Source of the DNA: Deltaproteobacteria bacterium
Lineage (GTDB): Bacteria > Myxococcota > B64-G9
Length of the DNA stretch: 33,231 nucleotides
Direction of reading: 5' to 3'
NCBI GenBank assembly: GCA_019307065.1
Contig: JAFDKH010000032.1
Span: 1 to 33,231 of the forward strand
This document shows positions 23,778 through 31,945 of the stretch, piece by piece. Made by a program: the position numbers and the translations under genes. Each line of letters begins with the position of its first letter. Within the stretch, counting starts at the first letter, position 1. The notes under the pieces were generated by a model. That model was given only the letters and a program-made list of their open reading frames with translations. It did no database searches and was not told the origin of the DNA.

Positions 23778-25043
23778 CTAGGGCTTGCGTCGCTCGGCCG
23801 CGCGGGCATGGGCTTCGAGGCCTTCCAGGCGGGCCAGGGCTGCGGCATCTGCAGCAAATTGGCCGGCTTGCTGGGGTTGGTCGATTCGCAACCAGGTTGT
23901 GACTTTCAAGAAGTTCAAGACCGACAAACCCCCGCTGAATCGGGCCGTGCCACCGGTTGGCAGCACGTGGTTGGGGCCGATACCGTAGTCGCCGAAAACT
24001 TCGGCCCCGCTGGCCCCAATGAAGACTGCCCCGTAATTTGTTAGCTGTTGGCTGACCTTCTGGCTGTCTTGACAGCAAAGTTCGAGGTGCTCGGGCGCGA
24101 GTTGATCGCAGACTTCGACAGCCTGGTCGACATTTTCAACCACCAGGCAAAATCCATTGGCTAAGGCTTTTGCGGCAGTAGCCCGGGTCGGCAAGTCGGA
24201 CAATTGAGCCTCGAGTTCAATATCGACTCTGTCGGGCAGAGCCTGGTCTAAGCTTATCAGGATGCAGATTGCCTGAGGATCGTGCTCGGCCTGAGCCAGC
24301 AAGTCCGCAGCGATCAAACCGGGATCGGCCGTCGCATCCGCTACAACCACGAGCTCCGAAGGTCCGGCCAGCATGTCAATCGCGACCTGGCCGGCTACCA
24401 GCTGTTTGGCGGCCGTTACCCAGCAATTACCCGGACCGACGACTACATCGCAAGCCGGGACCGGATTGGCTCCATAGGCCATAGCGGCAATGGCCTGAGC
24501 GCCGCCGGCTGCCAACAGGTAGTCGGCCTGGGCGACATGCGCGGCGGCTAAAGTGATCTGGGCCGGGCGAGGGGAGGCGACCCAAACTGTTTCGACTCCG
24601 GCCGTGCGCGCTGTTACTGCGGTCATTAGCACCGATGAGGGTAAAGGAAATCGCCCGCCGGGAGCGTAGCAACCCGCGCGACGAAGCGGAGTTATGCGCT
24701 GACCGGCTAGACCCCCCGGGACGCTGATCGAGATCTCTGCCAGGCTTTCTCTTTGGGCCGAGGCAAAACGACGAATTTTTTCGGCTGTTCGCTCAAGCAG
24801 CCCTTGCTGGTCGACAGTCAAAGAAGCATAAGCTGCCTGAAGTTCGTTGGAGCTATAGATTAGTTTGCCCAATGGATCGAGATCACCGACCTGGGCGGCA
24901 ATTTCTGATAGAGCTTCCAGACCACGTTCTTTGACGGCTTTTACGATTTTGGCGGCCTGATCAAGGGTGTCTTGATCAACCGCAATTCTTACAAACTCGG
25001 GAACTTGGCAGGCTTCAAGCCTGCGCAGTTTTGTTGCGTTCAT
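23778..25043 (-). CDS. hisD: Histidinol dehydrogenase
   Basis: This 421-residue zinc enzyme performs the last two steps, histidinol to histidinal to histidine, with two NAD+. Diagnostic stretches are GCYAPGGRFPLPSSVLMTA, VVGPGNCWVTAAKQLV, DMLAGPSELVVVADATADP, LLAQAEHDPQA (catalytic and zinc residues) and YGIGPNHVLPTGGTARFSGGLSV. Its ATG overlaps the hisA-I-E stop as ATGA. It is the last gene of the operon, whereas many bacteria place hisD near hisG. No terminator is visible in the 19 bases before the convergent gene. Confidence 0.97.
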   Translation of the reverse strand: MNATKLRRLEACQVPEFVRIAVDQDTLDQAAKIVKAVKERGLEALSEIAAQVGDLDPLGKLIYSSNELQAAYASLTVDQQGLLERTAEKIRRFASAQRESLAEISISVPGGLAGQRITPLRRAGCYAPGGRFPLPSSVLMTAVTARTAGVETVWVASPRPAQITLAAAHVAQADYLLAAGGAQAIAAMAYGANPVPACDVVVGPGNCWVTAAKQLVAGQVAIDMLAGPSELVVVADATADPGLIAADLLAQAEHDPQAICILISLDQALPDRVDIELEAQLSDLPTRATAAKALANGFCLVVENVDQAVEVCDQLAPEHLELCCQDSQKVSQQLTNYGAVFIGASGAEVFGDYGIGPNHVLPTGGTARFSGGLSVLNFLKVTTWLRIDQPQQAGQFAADAAALARLEGLEAHARAAERRKP

Positions 25044-26314
25044 GAGGCAACCTCCGCATTTACTTTAGCATCACCCCTTCGCCGGGTGACTTTGAGCGAG
25101 CGCCGATTCAGTTCGGCCTCGACCGCTGCCAGATCGACTCCGGCTCGAGCCAGTGCCACCAGCGAGAAATACAAGAGGTCGGCGGCTTCACGGGTGACTT
25201 CGGCCTGGCTGGCTGCGCAGCCCAACTCGCCGGCTTCTTCGATGAGTTTGGCTTCCAACAGACCCTGCTCTTCGAACAAGCGTTTTGTGTAAGAGCCGGA
25301 CGGGGCCTGGTGAGTTCGGTCGGTTAATCTGCGAAACAGGGCCGGCAGACCGTCTTCTGCGCCCCAGCAGCAAAAGCTGCCGCGATGACAGAAGCCGCTA
25401 CCGTTTTGGCGTACGCTGAATCTTAAAGCGTCCCGATCGCAATCGAGATCAACTCGCAGCAGTTTTTGAGTTGCGCCCGAGGTTTCTCCCTTGATCCACA
25501 GACCGCGTGAACGCGAGTGATAAACCCCCCGGCCAAGTCTGAGGGCTTCAGCCAGGCTTTCAATGTCGGACCAGGCCAGGCCCAGGGCCGTGCCATGTTG
25601 ATCGACCACGACTGTAGGCCAGAGGCCGTCGGCCCGATCTGATTTCAAGGGAGCCGCCAGAGCATCGGCCAGGCTTAGTTGGCCGGTATAGATCGCCATG
25701 CCAACCTGGGCGTCGGCTCCCAGCGAATCAAGGCTGGCGATTTCAGCCTGGCTGGTGATGCCGCCGGCTATGGTCAGACTAGCACCGTCGGCGGCCCGAA
25801 CAAGCTCGTCAACCCGATCGAGCGCGGTGCCTTGCAGGCGACCTTCCTTTTCTACAAAGGTAACTAAGAAGCCACCGACCAAACCCGACAATTCCTGCAG
25901 GCGCTCGACGACCCGCCGGCCGGTTTTCTTGCGCCAGCCCTGAATCACAACATCGTCATTTATCGAATCGAGGGCGGCTATCACCCGCTCGGGCGGCAGC
26001 TCCTTGAGCACTTCGGGCACTGCGGCGGTGCCCAGAATCACCTTACGGGCCCCGGCGTCCAGCCACTTGACTGCATCTGAGACAGAGCGGATTCCGCCCC
26101 CAACCCGGCAAGGAGCGATCCGGACGAGTTCAGCTATCAGATCGCTGTTCGAGCCGCGACCCAGGGCAGCATCCAGATCGATAACAGCGATCTCTCCGAT
26201 TAGACTGAATTGCTCAGCTAATCTGAACGGGTCGCCGGCATCGATTACTTTTTCTCGGCCGCCAATTAGCTGGACGGCATTGCCATCCATAATATCGATC
26301 GATGGAATTAACAT
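25040..26314 (-). CDS. hisA-hisI-hisE: Trifunctional HisA-HisI-HisE fusion
   Basis: One 424-residue chain carries three enzymes. Residues 1-222 are HisA (ProFAR isomerase), with IPSIDIMDGNAVQLIGG (Asp7), VGGGIRS, VIAALDS (Asp116) and TIAGGI. Residues 228-320 are HisI (phosphoribosyl-AMP cyclohydrolase), with VYHSRSRGLWIKGETSG, DCDRD (291-295), and NGSGFCHRGSFCCWG with metal-site Cys309, 315 and 316. Residues 325-424 are HisE (phosphoribosyl-ATP pyrophosphatase), with GSYTKRLFEE, AKLIEEAGEL and REAADLLYFSLVAL. HisIE fusions are common, but joining HisA in front is unusual to my knowledge. In HisA the usual TDI-rDG strand reads TFVEKEG (151-158). ATG at 26314 overlaps the hisF stop by seven bases. 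Confidence 0.94.
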   Translation of the reverse strand: MLIPSIDIMDGNAVQLIGGREKVIDAGDPFRLAEQFSLIGEIAVIDLDAALGRGSNSDLIAELVRIAPCRVGGGIRSVSDAVKWLDAGARKVILGTAAVPEVLKELPPERVIAALDSINDDVVIQGWRKKTGRRVVERLQELSGLVGGFLVTFVEKEGRLQGTALDRVDELVRAADGASLTIAGGITSQAEIASLDSLGADAQVGMAIYTGQLSLADALAAPLKSDRADGLWPTVVVDQHGTALGLAWSDIESLAEALRLGRGVYHSRSRGLWIKGETSGATQKLLRVDLDCDRDALRFSVRQNGSGFCHRGSFCCWGAEDGLPALFRRLTDRTHQAPSGSYTKRLFEEQGLLEAKLIEEAGELGCAASQAEVTREAADLLYFSLVALARAGVDLAAVEAELNRRSLKVTRRRGDAKVNAEVAS

Positions 26315-27063
26315 GGGCGTACCTCCACTTTGCCTTGCGACAAAAATTCCTTAAGCTGGCCAACCGAGAATTCGGCATAATGAAATATTGAGGCTGCCAG
26401 GACGGCATTCGCTCCGGCCCTGAGCGCCAAGAGCAAGTCTTCGGGTTTAGCTGCACCGCCCGAAGCAATGACCGGCACATTGACGGCTTTCGAAACAGCT
26501 TGGAGTAAACTAAGATCGTAGCCTGACCTGGTTCCGTCCCGGTCCCAGCTGGTCAGCAGAATTTCGCCGGCCCCTAGCCTGGCGGCAGTAGCGGCCCACT
26601 CGATTGCATCGAGCGGCACTCTTTGAGTTCCTGAACGGACGACAACTTCGTAACCGATTTGCCCGCGGGCGGCATCCAGGGCCAGTACGGTACACTGACT
26701 GCCGAAACGTTCGGCAATTTGGGTCAGCAGGCCGGGCTGTCGAACGGCGGCCGTATTAACGGCTATCTTGTCGGCTCCAGCCGACAGCAACTGGCCGGCA
26801 TCTTCGACTCTTCGGACTCCGCCTCCGACCGTTAACGGAATAGAAAGACGGGCTCGAACCTGACGGACGCACTCGAGCTGGGTCGAACGTCCTTCGGGCG
26901 TGGCGGATACGTCCAGTAATACCAGCTCATCGGCGCCCTGGGCCTCGTAAGCCGCAGCCAATTTCGCCGGATCTCCGGCGTCACGCAGCGAGCTAAATCG
27001 AATGCCTTTGACCACCCGGCCGTCGCGAACATCCAGACAAGGAATAATTCGAGCGGTCAACAT
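26308..27063 (-). CDS. hisF: Imidazole glycerol phosphate synthase cyclase subunit
   Basis: This 251-residue TIM barrel uses ammonia from HisH to convert PRFAR into imidazole glycerol phosphate and AICAR. Motifs are ARIIPCLDVRDGRVVKGI (catalytic Asp at position 11), PLTVGGGVRRVED, VLALDAARG (second Asp), ILLTSWDRDGTRSGYD and PVIASGGAAKPED. The ATG at 27063 gives the conserved N-terminus; a longer frame to 27153 has a non-homologous extension inside hisH. The start overlaps the hisH stop (ATGTTGA) with AAAGGAG upstream. Confidence 0.97.
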   Translation of the reverse strand: MLTARIIPCLDVRDGRVVKGIRFSSLRDAGDPAKLAAAYEAQGADELVLLDVSATPEGRSTQLECVRQVRARLSIPLTVGGGVRRVEDAGQLLSAGADKIAVNTAAVRQPGLLTQIAERFGSQCTVLALDAARGQIGYEVVVRSGTQRVPLDAIEWAATAARLGAGEILLTSWDRDGTRSGYDLSLLQAVSKAVNVPVIASGGAAKPEDLLLALRAGANAVLAASIFHYAEFSVGQLKEFLSQGKVEVRPC

Positions 27064-27680
27064 GGCAAAACTCCTTTCAATGCCGAGGTCGTCAGCCAGC
27101 GCTTGAGGAGATCCAGCCCGAAAGCGGAGGACAGCTCCGGGTGAAATTGGCAAGCCAGTACGTCACCTCGTTCAAGGGCCGCTACGAATGAGCCGCCATA
27201 GTCAGCGAAAGCAGCCCGCCAACCGCGGGGCGCCTGCTTGAGACAGTATGAGTTGGCGAAGTAGGCGTAGCCATCGCGTAACAGCCGGCAACTCTCCTGG
27301 GCCACGATCCGGTTCCAGCCCAGCTGGGGCACTTTTACGCTAGCTGGAAATCTTTGGGCCTGGCCGGGAAAAATACCCAAGGCCCGTCGGCCGGGGCTCT
27401 CTTGACTGCCGCTCGCTAGAAGTTGCAGGCCGAGACAAACCGCCAGAGTGGGCAGGCCCTGGAGGAAGCGCTCGGTCAAGGCTGAGGTCATACCGATCGA
27501 ATCGAGGTGGTCCATGGCGCTTGCCAGGGCCCCGACTCCCGGCAAAACTACTCGCTCAGCGCGTCGAACCACGTCGGGATCTTCGGTCAGGCAGGGGTCT
27601 GTGCCACAGCGCCGCAAGCCCGCCAATACGGAGGCAGTGTTGGCGGTACTGGTTTGAACAACGAAAACAGGTTGGGCCAT
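27057..27680 (-). CDS. hisH: Imidazole glycerol phosphate synthase glutaminase subunit
   Basis: This 207-residue class I glutamine amidotransferase delivers ammonia to HisF. Motifs are NTASVLAGLRRCG, VVLPGVGALASAM, the nucleophile Cys82 in LAVCLGLQLL, and His180/Glu182 in ACQFHPELSS. The common PHMGWN reads PQLGWN here. Two starts are adjacent: GTG 27683 and ATG 27680. The AAAGGAG site is seven bases from the ATG, so I use the latter. It overlaps the hisB stop by one base (TGATG). Confidence 0.94.
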   Translation of the reverse strand: MAQPVFVVQTSTANTASVLAGLRRCGTDPCLTEDPDVVRRAERVVLPGVGALASAMDHLDSIGMTSALTERFLQGLPTLAVCLGLQLLASGSQESPGRRALGIFPGQAQRFPASVKVPQLGWNRIVAQESCRLLRDGYAYFANSYCLKQAPRGWRAAFADYGGSFVAALERGDVLACQFHPELSSAFGLDLLKRWLTTSALKGVLPC

Positions 27681-28267
27681 CACAATACTCCTTTGGTGCT
27701 GGGTATCTGGTTTGAATTATCGCAGGCAACGGCCTGGCGCAGGGCCAGAGCCAAAGCTTTATATGCACTTTCGGCCCGATGGTGGTCGTTGGCACCTTTG
27801 AGAATGTCTACGTGTAACGTTGTGCGCGAAGCCATGGCAAACGAAATCAAGAAGTGGCAGATATTCTCACAAGCCAGGCCGCCGAGTCTGTCGCGGGCGA
27901 GCCCTAGATCGACACAGGCATAAGGTCGGCCTGAAAGGTCGACAACCACGCGAGCTAGTGATTCATCCAGCGCAACCAGCGCCCAACCGAAACGAGTGAT
28001 ACCGCGGCGCTGATCGAGCAGGCGGTCCAGAGCTTTACCCAGAACCAGGCCGCAATCCTCGGCGGTGTGGTGATCGTCGACCTCCAGATCTCCACGGCAG
28101 CTCAGGGTCAGATCGAAACGGGCATGCCGGGCCAGAGATGTTAGCAAGTGATCCAGAAAGCCGATTCCGGTTGATACTTCAGCGCGACCCGTTCCGTCAA
28201 GGTCGAGTGAAATGACGATATCGCTTTCATTGGTTTTTCGTTCAATTTCGATTTGACGGGTACTCAT
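27680..28267 (-). CDS. hisB: Imidazoleglycerol-phosphate dehydratase
   Basis: This 195-residue protein holds only the dehydratase; the N-terminal phosphatase domain found in E. coli HisB is absent. Manganese-binding motifs are FLDHLLTSLARHARFDL and DDHHTAEDCGLVLGKAL in the N-terminal half, and ICHFLISFAMASRTTLHVD plus the NDHHRAESAYKALALALR stretch in the C-terminal half. The ATG overlaps the hisC fusion stop as ATGA. Because it lacks a phosphatase, the HAD domain fused to HisC is the natural candidate for the later histidinol-phosphate step. Confidence 0.97.
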   Translation of the reverse strand: MSTRQIEIERKTNESDIVISLDLDGTGRAEVSTGIGFLDHLLTSLARHARFDLTLSCRGDLEVDDHHTAEDCGLVLGKALDRLLDQRRGITRFGWALVALDESLARVVVDLSGRPYACVDLGLARDRLGGLACENICHFLISFAMASRTTLHVDILKGANDHHRAESAYKALALALRQAVACDNSNQIPSTKGVL

Positions 28268-30012
28268 GACAAAATCTCCTCAATTTCATTGAAGTCTTCG
28301 ATAATCCTGGCGGCTCCCGAGAGTTCTAGAGCTTGATCTGCCTGGCTGGCTTGATCTCCCGGGGCCCGAATACCCAGCGGTACTACTCCGGCCGACCGGG
28401 CGGCGTTCATATCGTCGGGTGTGTCTCCAACCATCCAGGCCCGTTCGATTCCAAGTCTTTTGAGTGCCAGACGGACCGGGGCCGGATCGGGTTTCAAGGG
28501 CGCATCTTCTAGGCAGATTACTTCTTGTACCAAGCCAGTCAGGCCGGATTCGTTCAAAAAGCGGGCTGCATCTTTGCGGGGCCGTCCAGTCACGATAGCC
28601 AGCGGTAAACGAGCCGCCAGACGTTCCAGGACAGCTCGCTCGGGGATGAGACGTTCGCGTGTGCGCAGGCCGGGTTTCTCTGAAGTTCCCTGGTAAATAT
28701 TTTCGAACCTGGTTTTTACCTCGCTAAGCGTGGTCTTAATCCCGCTGTTTTCCAGTAAACGCTGCGTAGTCTGCCAATCGTTGTTGGCGCCGGTTTGAGC
28801 TTTGGCCCGACTTACTTCCTCGTAGCTTAAGGCCAGGCCGAACGTTTGCGCAGTTTCTATGATTGTCTGGCGGTATGAATTGGATACATCTGCCAGGACA
28901 CCATCCATATCCAGAAGCAATGCCCTGGGTGCCAAGACCGTTTTCAAGGCGACCTTCAGCCGGGCAAATGAAACTTTTTTGCCGGGACAGGTAATTCGCA
29001 GGCAACCTTGCAGGCTTTTGTCTGAGTTGAATATTCGGACTGAGATTCCCAAGGCCGCCAGTCCATTGCGTACCCAGCCGGCATCTCGAAAACGGGCGAG
29101 TACAAAGTTGGCTTGAGAGGTAAACGGCTCGGCGCCGAGGCTGCCTAGCAAGTCCGACAATTCGGCTCGTTCAAGCCTGACGCGCTTGATGAATTGGGCT
29201 ATGGCCTGGTCGCCAGCCTGAAGACGAGCTGTCGCCAGGGCTAGTGATGGCCGTCCGACTGGATAGGGGTGCCCGGCAGCACGCAGTAACTCGATTATAT
29301 CAGGATCCGCTGCTGCATAACCCACCCGCAACCCGGCCAACCCCCAGGCTTTGGAAAAAGTCCGCACCACAACTGCATTTTTCAAACCAAGTGCTGTATC
29401 GGTCAGGTCTTGATCGGCAAATTCGGTATAGGCCAAATCCACCAACAGGATCGCCTGCCGGGCGCAGGCCGAAAGGCGTTTTAGTTCAGCCGCGCTTACT
29501 ACAAAACCATTCGGATTGTTGGGGCTGACTACAGCAATGACTGCAGTTGCCGGACTGATTCTGGATATGACGTGTTCCAGAGGATAGGCAGCCTGGGTCC
29601 AGTCGACGGAAACGATTTCGGCGCCGGCCAGGTGTGCATAGCGGGCGATCATCTCGAAGGTCGGCCGGCATTGAATTAACTCACGTCCGGGCGCGCAGAA
29701 TGACCGACAAACCCGATCGATGGCGTCATCGCCGCCGGCTGTCACCATGACGGCCGCCGGATCTATCTGTAAGCGTTTTGCCAACAAGGCTTCCAGTCCG
29801 GAGGCATCCGGATAGCGATTCAGCAATTGGCGGCCCTGTCGTTCAAGCGAGTTCAGCAGGGCCAGATCCGGGGCACGACCCTCGTTGCTGTCGAGCCGCA
29901 AGTCAACCGGAACTGCAATTCGCTGGCCGCGATAAGCCTTGACTCCGGCGACCCGCTCAGCCGGGAATGGTCGGATAAGGCTGTTGGAGTTGTCGCTGCT
30001 AAGGGTGTTCAT
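28264..30012 (-). CDS. hisC: HisC aminotransferase fused to HAD phosphatase (probable histidinol-phosphate phosphatase)
   Basis: Residues 1-360 of this 582-residue protein are a PLP-dependent histidinol-phosphate aminotransferase. It has NRYPDASGLEALLAKRL, VVSPNNPNGFVV, DLAYTEFAD and the PLP Lys221 in TFSKAWGLAGLRVGYA. Residues 363-582 are a HAD subfamily IA hydrolase: LLLDMDGVLADVSNSY (Asp368 nucleophile, Asp370), IVTGRPRKDA, LKPDPAPVRLALKRLG and MVGDTPDDMNAARSAG. The HAD part resembles, from memory, a small IA clade whose members occur fused to or near histidine genes. Since no other phosphatase is in this otherwise complete operon, it probably removes phosphate from histidinol phosphate made by the HisC domain. 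ATGA overlap with hisG. Confidence 0.93.
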   Translation of the reverse strand: MNTLSSDNSNSLIRPFPAERVAGVKAYRGQRIAVPVDLRLDSNEGRAPDLALLNSLERQGRQLLNRYPDASGLEALLAKRLQIDPAAVMVTAGGDDAIDRVCRSFCAPGRELIQCRPTFEMIARYAHLAGAEIVSVDWTQAAYPLEHVISRISPATAVIAVVSPNNPNGFVVSAAELKRLSACARQAILLVDLAYTEFADQDLTDTALGLKNAVVVRTFSKAWGLAGLRVGYAAADPDIIELLRAAGHPYPVGRPSLALATARLQAGDQAIAQFIKRVRLERAELSDLLGSLGAEPFTSQANFVLARFRDAGWVRNGLAALGISVRIFNSDKSLQGCLRITCPGKKVSFARLKVALKTVLAPRALLLDMDGVLADVSNSYRQTIIETAQTFGLALSYEEVSRAKAQTGANNDWQTTQRLLENSGIKTTLSEVKTRFENIYQGTSEKPGLRTRERLIPERAVLERLAARLPLAIVTGRPRKDAARFLNESGLTGLVQEVICLEDAPLKPDPAPVRLALKRLGIERAWMVGDTPDDMNAARSAGVVPLGIRAPGDQASQADQALELSGAARIIEDFNEIEEILS

Positions 30013-30884
30013 GGCACTATCCCGGTAAGTTGGGTGATAACGATATCATTGCCGCCGCTGGCTTTTATTTCGGGAATGACTCGTGGCAAGTCGTCGCGCG
30101 GCACGGCCGCCTTGACGGCATAACCGCTGTTGCCATACAGGGATGAAATTGTTGGTTCGCGCATACACGGCAAGACACTGATGACTGCCTCGAGCTTTGC
30201 GGCCGATACATTGACTTCGACCATGACCCGGCGGCGCGATTCCAATACCGAGCGCAACAGCATGACAAAGCGCTCGATTTTTTCTCGCTGTACTTTACAG
30301 TCCAGCACCCGCGGATTGACATACAGGCGAGTGGAGGACGTCATCAGTTGATCTACAATCAAGAGTCCGTTGGCGCGCAGAGTCGAGCCGCTGGTGGTGT
30401 TGTCTACGATACAATCGGCATCCTCGGGAGGGAAGACTTCGGTTGCGCCGTAAGAACGAACGAAAGTAGCCGACAGCCCTTTTTGGTTTATCCAGTTGGT
30501 GGTCAGGCGCTTGTATTCAGAAGCCACGACCAAGGGCACATCAGGGAGGCGGCCGTCTACAACGAAATCCTTGGGAGCCGCGGCTACAATCCGAACCGGA
30601 TCGAGATCTGTATTGAGAACTTCGACTAGTTCAGCCCCGAGTTCGATAACCCAATCGCTTCCGGCGAATCCGATGTCGCGTGAACCGACGTGCAGCATTT
30701 CGACAATGCTTCGCGGTTTGAGGATCTTGGCTTCAAACCCGGCCAGGGAGATCTTGGGTCGATAGTCGCGCGAGCCGGATCTGAGCTTGATGCCGGCTTC
30801 GGCCAGCAGCCTGAAGATCTCGACCTGCATACGGCCTTTGGGTAAGGCCAGACGGAGAAAATTATCTTTTCTTTTTGGTGCCAT
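30009..30884 (-). CDS. hisG: ATP phosphoribosyltransferase, long form
   Basis: This 291-residue first enzyme of the pathway is of the long HisG type with a C-terminal regulatory domain. The catalytic part has LRLALPKGRMQVE, RDIGFAGSDWVIE and the PRPP loop CIVDNTTSGSTLRANGL. The last ~80 residues (VMVEVNVSAAKLEAVISVLP, KAAVPRDDLPRVIPEIKASG, DIVITQL) match the HisG_C domain that binds histidine for feedback inhibition. No HisZ is needed for this form. ATG 30884 has GGAGG at 30890-30894; a TTG at 30902 is less likely. It is the first enzyme gene after the leader attenuator. Confidence 0.96.
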   Translation of the reverse strand: MAPKRKDNFLRLALPKGRMQVEIFRLLAEAGIKLRSGSRDYRPKISLAGFEAKILKPRSIVEMLHVGSRDIGFAGSDWVIELGAELVEVLNTDLDPVRIVAAAPKDFVVDGRLPDVPLVVASEYKRLTTNWINQKGLSATFVRSYGATEVFPPEDADCIVDNTTSGSTLRANGLLIVDQLMTSSTRLYVNPRVLDCKVQREKIERFVMLLRSVLESRRRVMVEVNVSAAKLEAVISVLPCMREPTISSLYGNSGYAVKAAVPRDDLPRVIPEIKASGGNDIVITQLTGIVP

Positions 30885-30940
30885 TTGAGCCTCCTGCAAC
30901 ATTAATGCGGCCCGGGCGGCACCAAACGCTTTAAACGAAT

Positions 30941-30963
30941 GACGCCGGCCCAGGGCCGGCGTC
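30941..30963 (-). terminator. Attenuator terminator hairpin of the his leader
   Basis: Bases 30941-30950 and 30954-30963 form a perfect 10-bp GC-rich stem (GACGCCGGCC) with a 3-base loop between the leader ORF and hisG. The minus-strand tail is ATTCGTTTAAAG, a poor U-tract, so termination may be weak or factor-assisted. Its 5' arm can instead pair with the end of the leader ORF (see the antiterminator entry). Confidence 0.72.
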
Positions 30964-31028
30964 GATAGCGTTAGTAGTGATACACTACACCATCATCCGA
31001 CCCCACGGGTCTGGTGGTGATGATGGTG
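30953..31028 (-). promoter_or_regulatory. Alternative RNA pairings of the his attenuator
   Basis: On the transcript, CACCAUCAUC in the His codons (31028-31019) pairs perfectly with GAUGAUGGUG just after (30997-30988). GACCC (31011-31007) pairs with GGGUC (31003-30999) inside it: the protector stem. If a ribosome stalls in the His codons, GGGUCGG (31003-30997) is free to pair with CCGGCCC of the terminator 5' arm (30959-30953), seven pairs with one G-U: an antiterminator. A further small hairpin, GUAGUG/CACUAC (30988-30983 and 30979-30974), lies between. Confidence 0.72.
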
Positions 31029-31049
31029 ATGATGTACACAACTGTTCAT
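30993..31049 (-). CDS. hisL: Histidine operon leader peptide (seven consecutive His codons)
   Basis: An ATG at 31049 opens an 18-codon frame reading MNSCV, then seven His (codons 6-12, bases 31034-31014), then QTRGVG and TGA at 30995-30993. A GAGAG sequence about nine bases before the ATG can serve as ribosome site. The layout (short ORF with a run of codons for the operon's product, competing stems, GC-rich hairpin, then hisG) is that of enterobacterial hisL. When charged tRNA-His is scarce the ribosome should stall here and let the operon be transcribed. It is too short for routine gene calling. Confidence 0.9.
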   Translation of the reverse strand: MNSCVHHHHHHHQTRGVG

Positions 31050-31063
31050 GAATTGAAGCTCTC

Positions 31064-31097
31064 ACAGACAGGGCATGTCTGTCAAGTAGGTTGTCAA
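31064..31097 (-). promoter_or_regulatory. Inverted repeat and -35-like boxes upstream of hisL
   Basis: ACAGACA (31064-31070) and TGTCTGT (31076-31082) form a perfect 7-base inverted repeat with a 5-base centre. Two minus-strand TTGACA boxes (31097-31092 and 31085-31080) lie just upstream or overlap it. I see no convincing -10 at the right distance from either, so the his promoter is not placed precisely. The palindrome could be an operator or a weak 3'-end hairpin of the preceding gene. Confidence 0.35.
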
Positions 31098-31126
31098 TAG
31101 ATTGTTCCCCAACGAAAGATTAGGAT

Positions 31127-31945
31127 CTAGACCAAGGTCTTGTCTTCATCATCTGCGGGTCTGCCAAGTCCCAATAGACGATGCAAGGAGTTGAAAAACT
31201 GGACCAGCATGACCGGTTTTGTCAGGAAAAGGTCGGCTCCGGCAATATAGGCCGACTTTTTGGCTTCATCGCCCCCGGCGCTGGCGGTGATAACCGGTAA
31301 GGCATGGGTTTTTTTGTCCTTCCGAATCGCGCGTATGATTTCTTCTCCACTCATGATCGGAATTTTCAGATCGATTATTGCCAGATCAAAATCCTGGGTC
31401 TGGATCAGATCCCAGGCTTGCCGGCCGTCCAGGGCTTCGACTACCTCCAGTGCTCTATGATCGGACATCCTGACGCCATGAAATTTCTGTAAGCCGAAGC
31501 GGAACATCTCGCGAACCTCACGGTTGTCTTCAACCAGAAGGACACGAAAAGGAGAACTGTCTACGGCCGCAGATTCAGGTGAATCGGTTTCCCGAGATTC
31601 AAGCAAGGCAAGAGATTTGACCAGTGTCCGGATTCTCTCAGCCTCTTCTTCTGATTCGAAGACAAAAGCCACGCCAATGCCGGCCGGTGAATCTTCGCTG
31701 GCCTGACTTTCGGGGCGGCTCCAGCGCACATGTCCCTTGCAACGAATCGATGAGACCAGCCCCGGAAAAGAGATCGAAAAAGAAAGTTTCTCGCCATCTT
31801 GAAAGGACCGCTGGGTGGCAATGAAAACTCCTCCGTCACTGGCATTCGAAGCATAGTCAGCCAGGAAATCTTCCGGGCTGTCATAGTCGACCTTGAGAAT
31901 GACTTCGGTCCGCGGGTGTTTTCGAGTATGGTCTGAGTCGGCCAT
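31127..31945 (-). CDS. PilZ-receiver protein (cyclic-di-GMP and phosphorylation input)
   Basis: Residues 1-110 of this 272-residue protein are a PilZ domain with both cyclic-di-GMP motifs intact: RxxxR (Arg8-Arg12) and NASDGG (34-39). WSRPES and GIGVAFVF fit the fold. A linker of about 20 residues leads to a receiver domain (133-260) with Glu139/Asp140, phospho-acceptor Asp192, Thr220 and Lys243 (VLLVEDNREV, AIIDLKIPIMSG, LTKPV). There is no DNA-binding output. The PilZ style resembles a family expanded in myxobacteria. It follows the lipoprotein gene by 25 bases and is probably the last gene of that operon. No histidine kinase is nearby. Confidence 0.9.
   Translation of the reverse strand: MADSDHTRKHPRTEVILKVDYDSPEDFLADYASNASDGGVFIATQRSFQDGEKLSFSISFPGLVSSIRCKGHVRWSRPESQASEDSPAGIGVAFVFESEEEAERIRTLVKSLALLESRETDSPESAAVDSSPFRVLLVEDNREVREMFRFGLQKFHGVRMSDHRALEVVEALDGRQAWDLIQTQDFDLAIIDLKIPIMSGEEIIRAIRKDKKTHALPVITASAGGDEAKKSAYIAGADLFLTKPVMLVQFFNSLHRLLGLGRPADDEDKTLV

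Follow-up and report, generated by a model that had tools for sequence, protein, structure and literature searches.

A predicted ribosome-mediated attenuator, likely on a leaderless mRNA, ahead of hisG in a Myxococcota genome and its relatives

Known Attenuators and the Position of This Locus

Attenuation by means of a His leader peptide is textbook enteric biology, and the enteric his RNA is described by a six-segment A-F scheme. The available text of one paper gives the enteric hisL leader peptide seven consecutive His residues, calls leaderless transcripts rare in Firmicutes and Proteobacteria, and describes leaderless his operons in Corynebacterium with no His leader peptide before hisD (PMC3896937). 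His attenuators in gammaproteobacteria and Firmicutes are treated in the accessible parts of two others (PMC9413887, PMC2965389). Regulation before hisG in gammaproteobacteria is named in a further paper, whose accessible part also cites a comparative survey of bacterial attenuation and a conference paper on Actinobacteria His leader peptides (PMC4833913). The trpL RNA of Sinorhizobium meliloti begins with the ATG of its leader ORF, according to the part available of PMC7298713. Among the literature matches listed, which covered few subscription papers, none dealt with his leaders in Myxococcota, Planctomycetota, or Acidobacteriota.

The window described here is the whole of a 33,231-nt stretch, contig JAFDKH010000032.1 of the Myxococcota assembly GCA_019307065.1. 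Its minus strand at 31085-30931 very probably encodes a ribosome-mediated his transcription attenuator, likely made as a leaderless mRNA. With E. coli/Salmonella hisL (RF00514) it shares a seven-His short ORF before hisG, alternative pairings, and a terminator hairpin. E. coli hisL has a 5' UTR, whereas the distance from TTGAC to the start codon is 35-39 nt in most of the leaders studied here, and a single 1:2:3:4 set of segments suffices, as in trp attenuators. S. meliloti trpL is likewise a leaderless attenuator, but it has tryptophan codons, precedes a trpE(G) operon, and belongs to Alphaproteobacteria. Mycobacterial polycysteine leaderless short ORFs are reportedly cysteine-responsive attenuators, to judge by the title of a 2020 paper by Canestrari, and would thus be leaderless too while differing in the amino acid, cysteine, and in the phylum, Actinobacteria. 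The Firmicutes His leaders (PMC9413887; hisS/hisZ in PMC2965389) have consecutive His codons and a terminator/antiterminator before his genes; they differ in phylum and partly in the genes concerned, and the accessible text of these papers does not mention leaderlessness. What appears to be new here is a predicted his attenuator of classical logic that falls outside RF00514, has a likely leaderless leader ORF, and is widely distributed.

The Leader ORF and the his Operon

The leader ORF has the following parts:

30993-31049, minus strand: leader peptide ORF MNSCVHHHHHHHQTRGVG, 18 codons, stop included in the coordinates, read from the sequence and from the upstream scan
31049-31047, minus strand: ATG start codon of the leader, read from the sequence
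30995-30993, minus strand: TGA stop codon of the leader, read from the sequence
31014-31034, minus strand: seven consecutive His codons (codons 6-12) in the sequence, the presumed regulatory codons

The 18-codon ORF with seven consecutive His codons that a preliminary description placed ahead of hisG can be read directly in the sequence, and a short His-run ORF does lie upstream of his genes. CAY runs of at least five codons occur in three places in the genome sequence analysed, the leader included. Neither of the other two (L132 and L133) is a short leader ORF. In locus L132, on contig C177, a six-CAY run at locus positions 1965-1982 (numbered along its minus strand) is about 60 nt downstream of a TTGACA, and no in-frame start precedes it; the other run sits within a 126-codon open frame. 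The 176-nt leader folds more stably than all of 200 dinucleotide shuffles (z -4.26).

Downstream of the leader lie seven his genes, identified by their domains:

30890-30895, minus strand: AGGAGG, Shine-Dalgarno (SD) sequence of hisG, read from the sequence
30009-30884, minus strand: hisG, long form with HisG_C, 291 aa from an SD-preceded ATG (HisG 8e-32, HisG_C 6.6e-19)
28264-30012, minus strand: fusion of a hisC-like aminotransferase and a HAD hydrolase (hisC model 224.8 bits, below the curated cut-off of 276.55)
27680-28267, minus strand: hisB (IGP dehydratase), by domain models
27057-27683, minus strand: hisH (TIGR01855 above cut-off)
26308-27153, minus strand: hisF, by domain models; coordinates of the ORF as listed, the true start probably further in
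25040-26314, minus strand: hisA-hisI-hisE fusion (hisA models below cut-offs, hisE domain TIGR03188 above)
23778-25043, minus strand: hisD, by domain models

The hisG product scores above the equivalog cut-off, and the gene likely starts at 30884 rather than at 30902 as in the mechanical ORF list. Two of the seven genes are fusions, hisC-like/HAD (28264-30012) and hisA/hisIE (25040-26314). The operon would supply every step of the pathway, provided that the HAD domain acts as the histidinol phosphatase.

In the family of the window genome (f1, nine genomes), a HisG match was found in two genomes only, the window genome itself and G007, whose HisG is 35% identical to that of the window. The seven genomes without a match imply that the operon was either lost by the kin or gained in the window genome; these relatives may be histidine auxotrophs, or the operon a gain. 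Contamination of the assembly is not favoured as the source of the contig, since the ValRS of the window is closest to those of three genomes of its own family (75, 72, and 69%), with a best match of 57-58% outside the family; five other family members have a more distant ValRS.

Distribution of the Leader

The scan for leaders covered up to 600 nt upstream of hisG and accepted ORFs of 8-60 codons with at least four His in seven residues; for nine of the loci with no hit the upstream sequence available was shorter than 600 nt. The His-rich short ORF that the preliminary description led one to expect before the hisG of related genomes was found at 116 of the 209 loci examined. The reverse strand gave none (0 of 209), and mononucleotide shuffles of the same 209 upstream regions gave a mean of 0.2 hits (20 rounds, maximum 2). 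Nine of the 209 loci are second genome copies, six from Myxococcota and three among the loci of named genomes. Removal of the six duplicate copies that have leaders left 110 unique leaders, 39 of them with the HisG type of the window (type A) and 71 of type B.

HisG is present in 124 of 195 Myxococcota genomes, and 123 were scanned, G121 being left out because its match lies at a contig edge. One Myxococcota family, f8, has a type B leader in 71 of its 73 HisG-bearing genomes (the misses are G066 and G035), while no leader passed the scan in any of the 23 genomes fetched from family f13. Four Myxococcota genomes with type A HisG pass it (the window genome G000, G034, G059, and G058); in a fifth, G020, the short ORF contains three His. 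Among the HisG loci of named genomes, 35 of 80 have a leader. Together with the four just listed they make up the 39 type A leaders, which come from six phyla, as given by the sequence record or the tree label: Planctomycetota (16), Pseudomonadota (7), Myxococcota (7), Acidobacteriota (4), Spirochaetota (4), and Sumerlaeota (1).

When the leader label (L004 included) is mapped on a HisG tree with 87 type A rows it is clustered, with 15 changes against a shuffled mean of about 29 (0/500 shuffles). No leader was detected for 47 of the 87 rows, support is poor at 43 of the 84 inner branches of the tree, and the position of the window operon is not given by it (no starred set). In one supported mixed pair (SH-aLRT 99) a Myxococcota genome groups with an Acidiferrobacteraceae genome, both with leaders; this is compatible with transfer of operon and leader together, although it does not prove it.

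The Promoter Region and the Start of the mRNA

Three elements precede the leader ORF:

31080-31085, minus strand: TTGACA, candidate -35 box, 36 nt before the leader start codon, from the sequence and the spacing in relatives
31057-31062, minus strand: AGAGCT, the -10 place given by a 17-nt spacer, a poor match to TATAAT, seven nt before the ATG at 31049
31064-31082, minus strand: ACAGACA-TGCCC-TGTCTGT, a perfect inverted repeat of 7 bp with a 5-nt centre, between the -35 and -10 places

A consensus promoter scan of window positions 30880-31300 found no promoter, and a 71-nt promoter query matched only itself in its own genome. The inverted repeat is a candidate operator, which could account for the poor -10.

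TTGAC begins 35-39 nt before the start codon in 96 of the 110 unique leaders (29/39 type A and 67/71 type B), while any other 5-nt bin between 10 and 64 nt before the start has it in only 0-3 leaders. The start codon of type A leaders was taken as the nearest ATG before the His cluster, regardless of promoters; the rule for type B, chosen once the first loci had been inspected, was to take the start nearest to six codons upstream of the cluster. In three of the type A exceptions (L010, L177, and L208) TTGAC lies 36-39 nt before the next ATG upstream. Among 14 leaders found later with the RNA model described below and in new genomes, seven have an exact TTGAC at 34-38 nt, and five more have TTGCC, TTGTA, or TTGCA at 36-40 nt. 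Where type A leaders have TTGAC at 35-39 nt (29 cases), the best -10 hexamer has two to five of six matches and ends 6-10 nt ahead of the start codon; transcription would then begin on the AUG or within about three nt of it.

An SD core (GAGG/GGAG, 18 to 4 nt before the start) precedes the leader ORF in 3 of the 110 leaders, compared with 13.7 in shuffles (range 5-24), and the window leader has none. At the same loci a core is found within 60 nt before the HisG match in merely 26 of 110, so the missing SD may partly be a trait of these genomes. Taken on promoter spacing in 96 of 110 leaders, with a poor -10 in the window itself, the leader mRNA is likely leaderless, unlike that of E. coli hisL. 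If the leaderless start is real, the system would be a clean test bed for why attenuators do without an SD, and for how ribosomes load on leaderless mRNAs in these phyla.

RNA Segments, Terminator and Antiterminator

The RNA from the His codons to the U-tract can be divided as follows:

31019-31028, minus strand: segment 1, within the His codons; predicted to pair with segment 2 (protector) when no ribosome is present, 10 bp with GAUGAUGGUG
30982-31004, minus strand: segment 2, GGGGUCGGAUGAUGGUGUAGUGU, around the stop codon; pairs with segment 1 or segment 3
30953-30970, minus strand: segment 3, CGCUAUCGACGCCGGCCC, antiterminator partner of segment 2; 30963-30954 is the terminator 5' arm
30941-30963, minus strand: terminator-like hairpin GACGCCGGCC-CUG-GGCCGGCGUC, 10 bp, 3-nt loop, -20.7 kcal/mol; the 3' arm is segment 4
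30931-30940, minus strand: weak U-tract AUUCGUUUAA, five U in 10

Most of this architecture was already in the preliminary description. Its 10-bp terminator hairpin is present at 30963-30941, is also listed by a consensus terminator scan, and covaries in relatives, and its antiterminator pairing holds, GGGUCGG (31003-30997) being complementary to CCGGCCC (30959-30953). Of the proposed 10 + 5 bp protector the 10 bp stand, while the inner five do not and fold instead as 6 bp with a one-base bulge. Protector-stem stability has a mean z of -1.2 over 35 leaders (four left out), weak evidence by itself. When the full-length leader is folded to its minimum energy, segments 3-4 pair with a GC-rich stretch further down, UGCCGCCCGGGCCGC at window positions 30907-30921 (minus strand).

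Alignment A2 contains 29 of the 39 type A leaders; ten with differing geometry or a doubtful hairpin call were left out (L007, L010, L159, L164, L191, L196, L199, L206, L207, and L211). The terminator is paired in 95.4% of the cells of these 29 leaders, changes on both sides occur in five of its 10 pairs, and its covariation score is reached by 0 of 500 shuffles. For the antiterminator in fixed columns 74.4% of the cells are paired (reached by 28/500 shuffles) and seven of 12 pairs are changed on both sides (17/500), and when it is slid by one or two columns there are as many both-side cells as in the true register. Covariation of the stems, by which the preliminary description was to be judged, is thus clear for the terminator and modest for the fixed-column antiterminator, a test that is weak alone because shuffles and slid controls come close to it or equal it.

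A register-free measure favours the antiterminator more strongly. The duplex with a leader's own arm has a mean energy of -21.3 kcal/mol, against -19.3 kcal/mol with the arms of other leaders, and none of 5000 permutations, which ignore kinship among the leaders, was as low (31 of 39 leaders, eight left out; all 39 likewise gave 0/5000). Since the arms resemble one another across leaders, the own arm comes out best in just two of 31 (median rank 11).

An intrinsic terminator is accordingly predicted between the leader ORF and the first gene from the hairpin and its covariation, with a weak U-tract in the window. The preliminary description took this U-tract as a possible sign of a variant mechanism; that view is not supported, as 22 of the 39 type A leaders have just three to six U in 10 after the hairpin. 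Strong tracts, with at least seven U in 10, are found in 14 of the 39.

Ribosome Position and Folding

Ribosomes were modelled as masks with 16 nt assumed from the first P-site base to the leading edge, and RNA made to +100. Before segment 4 is made, the antiterminator of the window has a probability of 0.98-1.00 when any of codons 6-12 occupies the A site, 0.49 for codon 13, and 0.00 at the stop codon, while ribosome-free RNA gives 0.07. Once segment 4 is present the terminator is favoured at equilibrium in every ribosome state, so the decision of the switch must be kinetic. Classical attenuators likewise decide kinetically.

The same contrast is seen in the relatives. Upstream pairing of the terminator arm in all 39 type A leaders has a mean of 0.75 with the ribosome on the His codons and 0.31 with it at the stop. 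Even in ribosome-free RNA the mean is 0.55, so the protector is not general in type A. The difference between His and stop exceeds 0.3 in 28 of 39, and 16 of 39 are both above 0.5 on His and below 0.2 at the stop. The 69 distinct type B sequences give means of 0.66, 0.15, and 0.22; here 62 of 69 show a difference above 0.3 and 49 of 69 are above 0.5 on His and below 0.2 at the stop. With the ribosome in mid-His the values are 0.76 versus 0.31 at the stop for type A (0.57 versus 0.45 with dinucleotide-shuffled linkers) and 0.69 versus 0.15 for type B (0.55 versus 0.43). The mid-His minus stop difference is thus 0.45 (A) and 0.54 (B) for the real linkers, and 0.12 (A) and 0.13 (B) for the shuffled ones. 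In folding calculations before segment 4, then, the antiterminator is favoured on His codons and not at the stop.

Proposed Mechanism

The hisL logic of the preliminary description is supported by the anatomy, the position, the relatives, the compensatory changes in the terminator, the preference of the antiterminator for its own partner, and the ribosome-masking calculations, and for these reasons hisL-type attenuation is the best reading, in which termination in vivo and the histidine response are predicted. The guess in that description of a Myxococcota-like genome is also supported, whereas the probable leaderless start and the broad occurrence of the leader had escaped it. Transcription would start at the leader AUG or within about three nt of it, and a ribosome would load on this AUG without an SD. 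When charged His-tRNA is plentiful the ribosome should reach the UGA in segment 2 and cover this segment, and the 3:4 hairpin would stop transcription. When His-tRNA is short the ribosome would stall on one of codons 6-12 and cover segment 1 only; segment 2 could then capture segment 3 before segment 4 exists, and the polymerase would continue into hisG. If no ribosome is present 1:2 would form, and the terminator too.

Alternative Explanations

The alternatives that leave the hairpin and the His codons in place differ from the attenuator just described in where transcription starts or in what the hairpin does. In a conventional attenuator with a 5' UTR, transcription would start further upstream, for instance at a different type of promoter or at one using the first TTGACA (31097-31092), and yield an SD-poor leadered mRNA whose downstream working is unchanged. 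We regard this as unlikely though deserving of some weight: the -10 of the window is poor at the expected place, another TTGACA is found 12 nt upstream of the candidate -35 box, HisG itself seldom has an SD core before it in these genomes, and in E. coli hisL a TTGCTT (a promoter assigned in this analysis) lies 68 nt before the ATG and leaves a real 5' UTR, while the spacing of TTGAC in the great majority of leaders, and its near absence from the other bins tested, points to the leaderless start. Less probable still is that hisG is controlled by Rho or through translation, with a hairpin that only pauses the polymerase or insulates, the weak U-tract meaning little termination. Two type A relatives have merely two U in 10, compared with five in the window, and segments 3-4 are also able to fold with sequence downstream of the hairpin, which would suit this explanation; it is opposed by the covariation of the hairpin, by the many relatives with strong U-tracts, and by the SD of hisG at 30895-30890, which lies outside the switch.

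The remaining two explanations do away with the switch. Poly-His binds metals, so the His run could belong to a peptide with a role of its own, such as metal binding, and the hairpin could be the ordinary terminator of an upstream transcript. This is very improbable, given that type A peptides have little in common except the His run (many end like ...AG or GVG before the UGA, within segment 2) and that both the behaviour with ribosome position and the partner preference of the antiterminator point to a constraint on the RNA. That a chance His run precedes a chance hairpin is hardly credible. The small size of the ORF is the only point in its favour, set against the fold stability relative to shuffles, the rarity of CAY runs in the genome, the covariation of the terminator, and the leaders of relatives; it is best excluded by the last of these, because they are found in more than half of the upstream regions and in none on the reverse strand. 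Ribosome-mediated attenuation from a likely leaderless mRNA is thus retained below.

RNA Family and Spread of the Leader

At the gathering threshold Rfam has no family in the window or in the loci of 20 relatives, RF00514 His_leader included, whereas the E. coli hisL control scores 131.6 bits with RF00514 against a gathering threshold of 49. A permissive search of the window piece gave Thr_leader as the only sub-threshold match (28.8 bits versus 55). A T-box riboswitch was rejected, there being no Rfam family at gathering in the window.

RNA model R1 was built from the 29 aligned type A leaders, which cover Planctomycetota, Pseudomonadota, Myxococcota, and Acidobacteriota; the Spirochaetota leaders and the single Sumerlaeota leader, whose hairpin is differently made, were left out. 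At E 0.001 R1 has no match in the genome of L159 (Sumerlaeota) or in that of L206 (Spirochaetota), and it does not find E. coli hisL. When run on 189 Myxococcota genomes it matches 21 at E <=0.01. All four matches with E <1e-6 are leaders before hisG, those of G020 and G058 being outside the alignment, while eight weaker matches made into loci have neither HisG nor a His ORF; the leader of G059 was missed. The genomes of 40 named-genome loci give 28 matches at E 0.001, mostly by construction, and three extra matches (L253-L255) proved on checking not to be his leaders.

Two phyla were searched more widely. Among 343 genomes of the phylum of G195 (Phycisphaerae record L134; Planctomycetota) 25 match at E <=1e-4, including four that the alignment already contains. 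In 11 of the 21 new genomes hisG follows closely and an ORF with at least three His in seven is present, one of these (L278) being doubtful; no HisG turned up next to the match in the other 10. The phylum of G234 (Acidobacteria record L213; 297 genomes) gave nine matches, two of which are in the alignment; two of the seven new ones combine hisG with a His ORF, a third carries a His ORF at the end of its contig, and the other four show no HisG adjoining. Matches weaker than about 1e-6 are a mix of his leaders and other hairpins.

It can tentatively be suggested that these leaders form a single ancient leaderless his attenuator RNA family, which spread with type A HisG in Myxococcota, Planctomycetota, Acidobacteriota, and Pseudomonadota and has diverged members among Spirochaetota and possibly Sumerlaeota, and that a second, differently built leaderless his attenuator arose in one myxobacterial family. 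The promoter of such a family would be locked to the leader start codon and combined with a GCCGGC switch, in which an 'anti-His' segment (UGAUGG) would pair either with the His codons or with CCAUC, a mimic of these codons next to the terminator. Initiation by 70S ribosomes on leaderless mRNA would be built into the sensor, tying the first nucleotide of each transcript to a ribosome. The interest of this lies in a shared, likely leaderless RNA in four phyla, before hisG in groups such as Planctomycetota and Acidobacteriota.

Type B Leaders

In type B leaders the terminator arm CGAAGGCCCGUC has its partner within the ORF, in an GACGGGACCGUUCG-like stretch that encodes the peptide DGTVR; this holds for most of ten examples, and in L083 both sides of the pairing differ. 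Many leader peptides of family f8 (L014-L125) read HHHHAHHRxxxDGTxRRAHAWV or a near variant. The DGT part looks to be kept for RNA pairing, and the later His codons (AHAWVTH) may form a second stall site.
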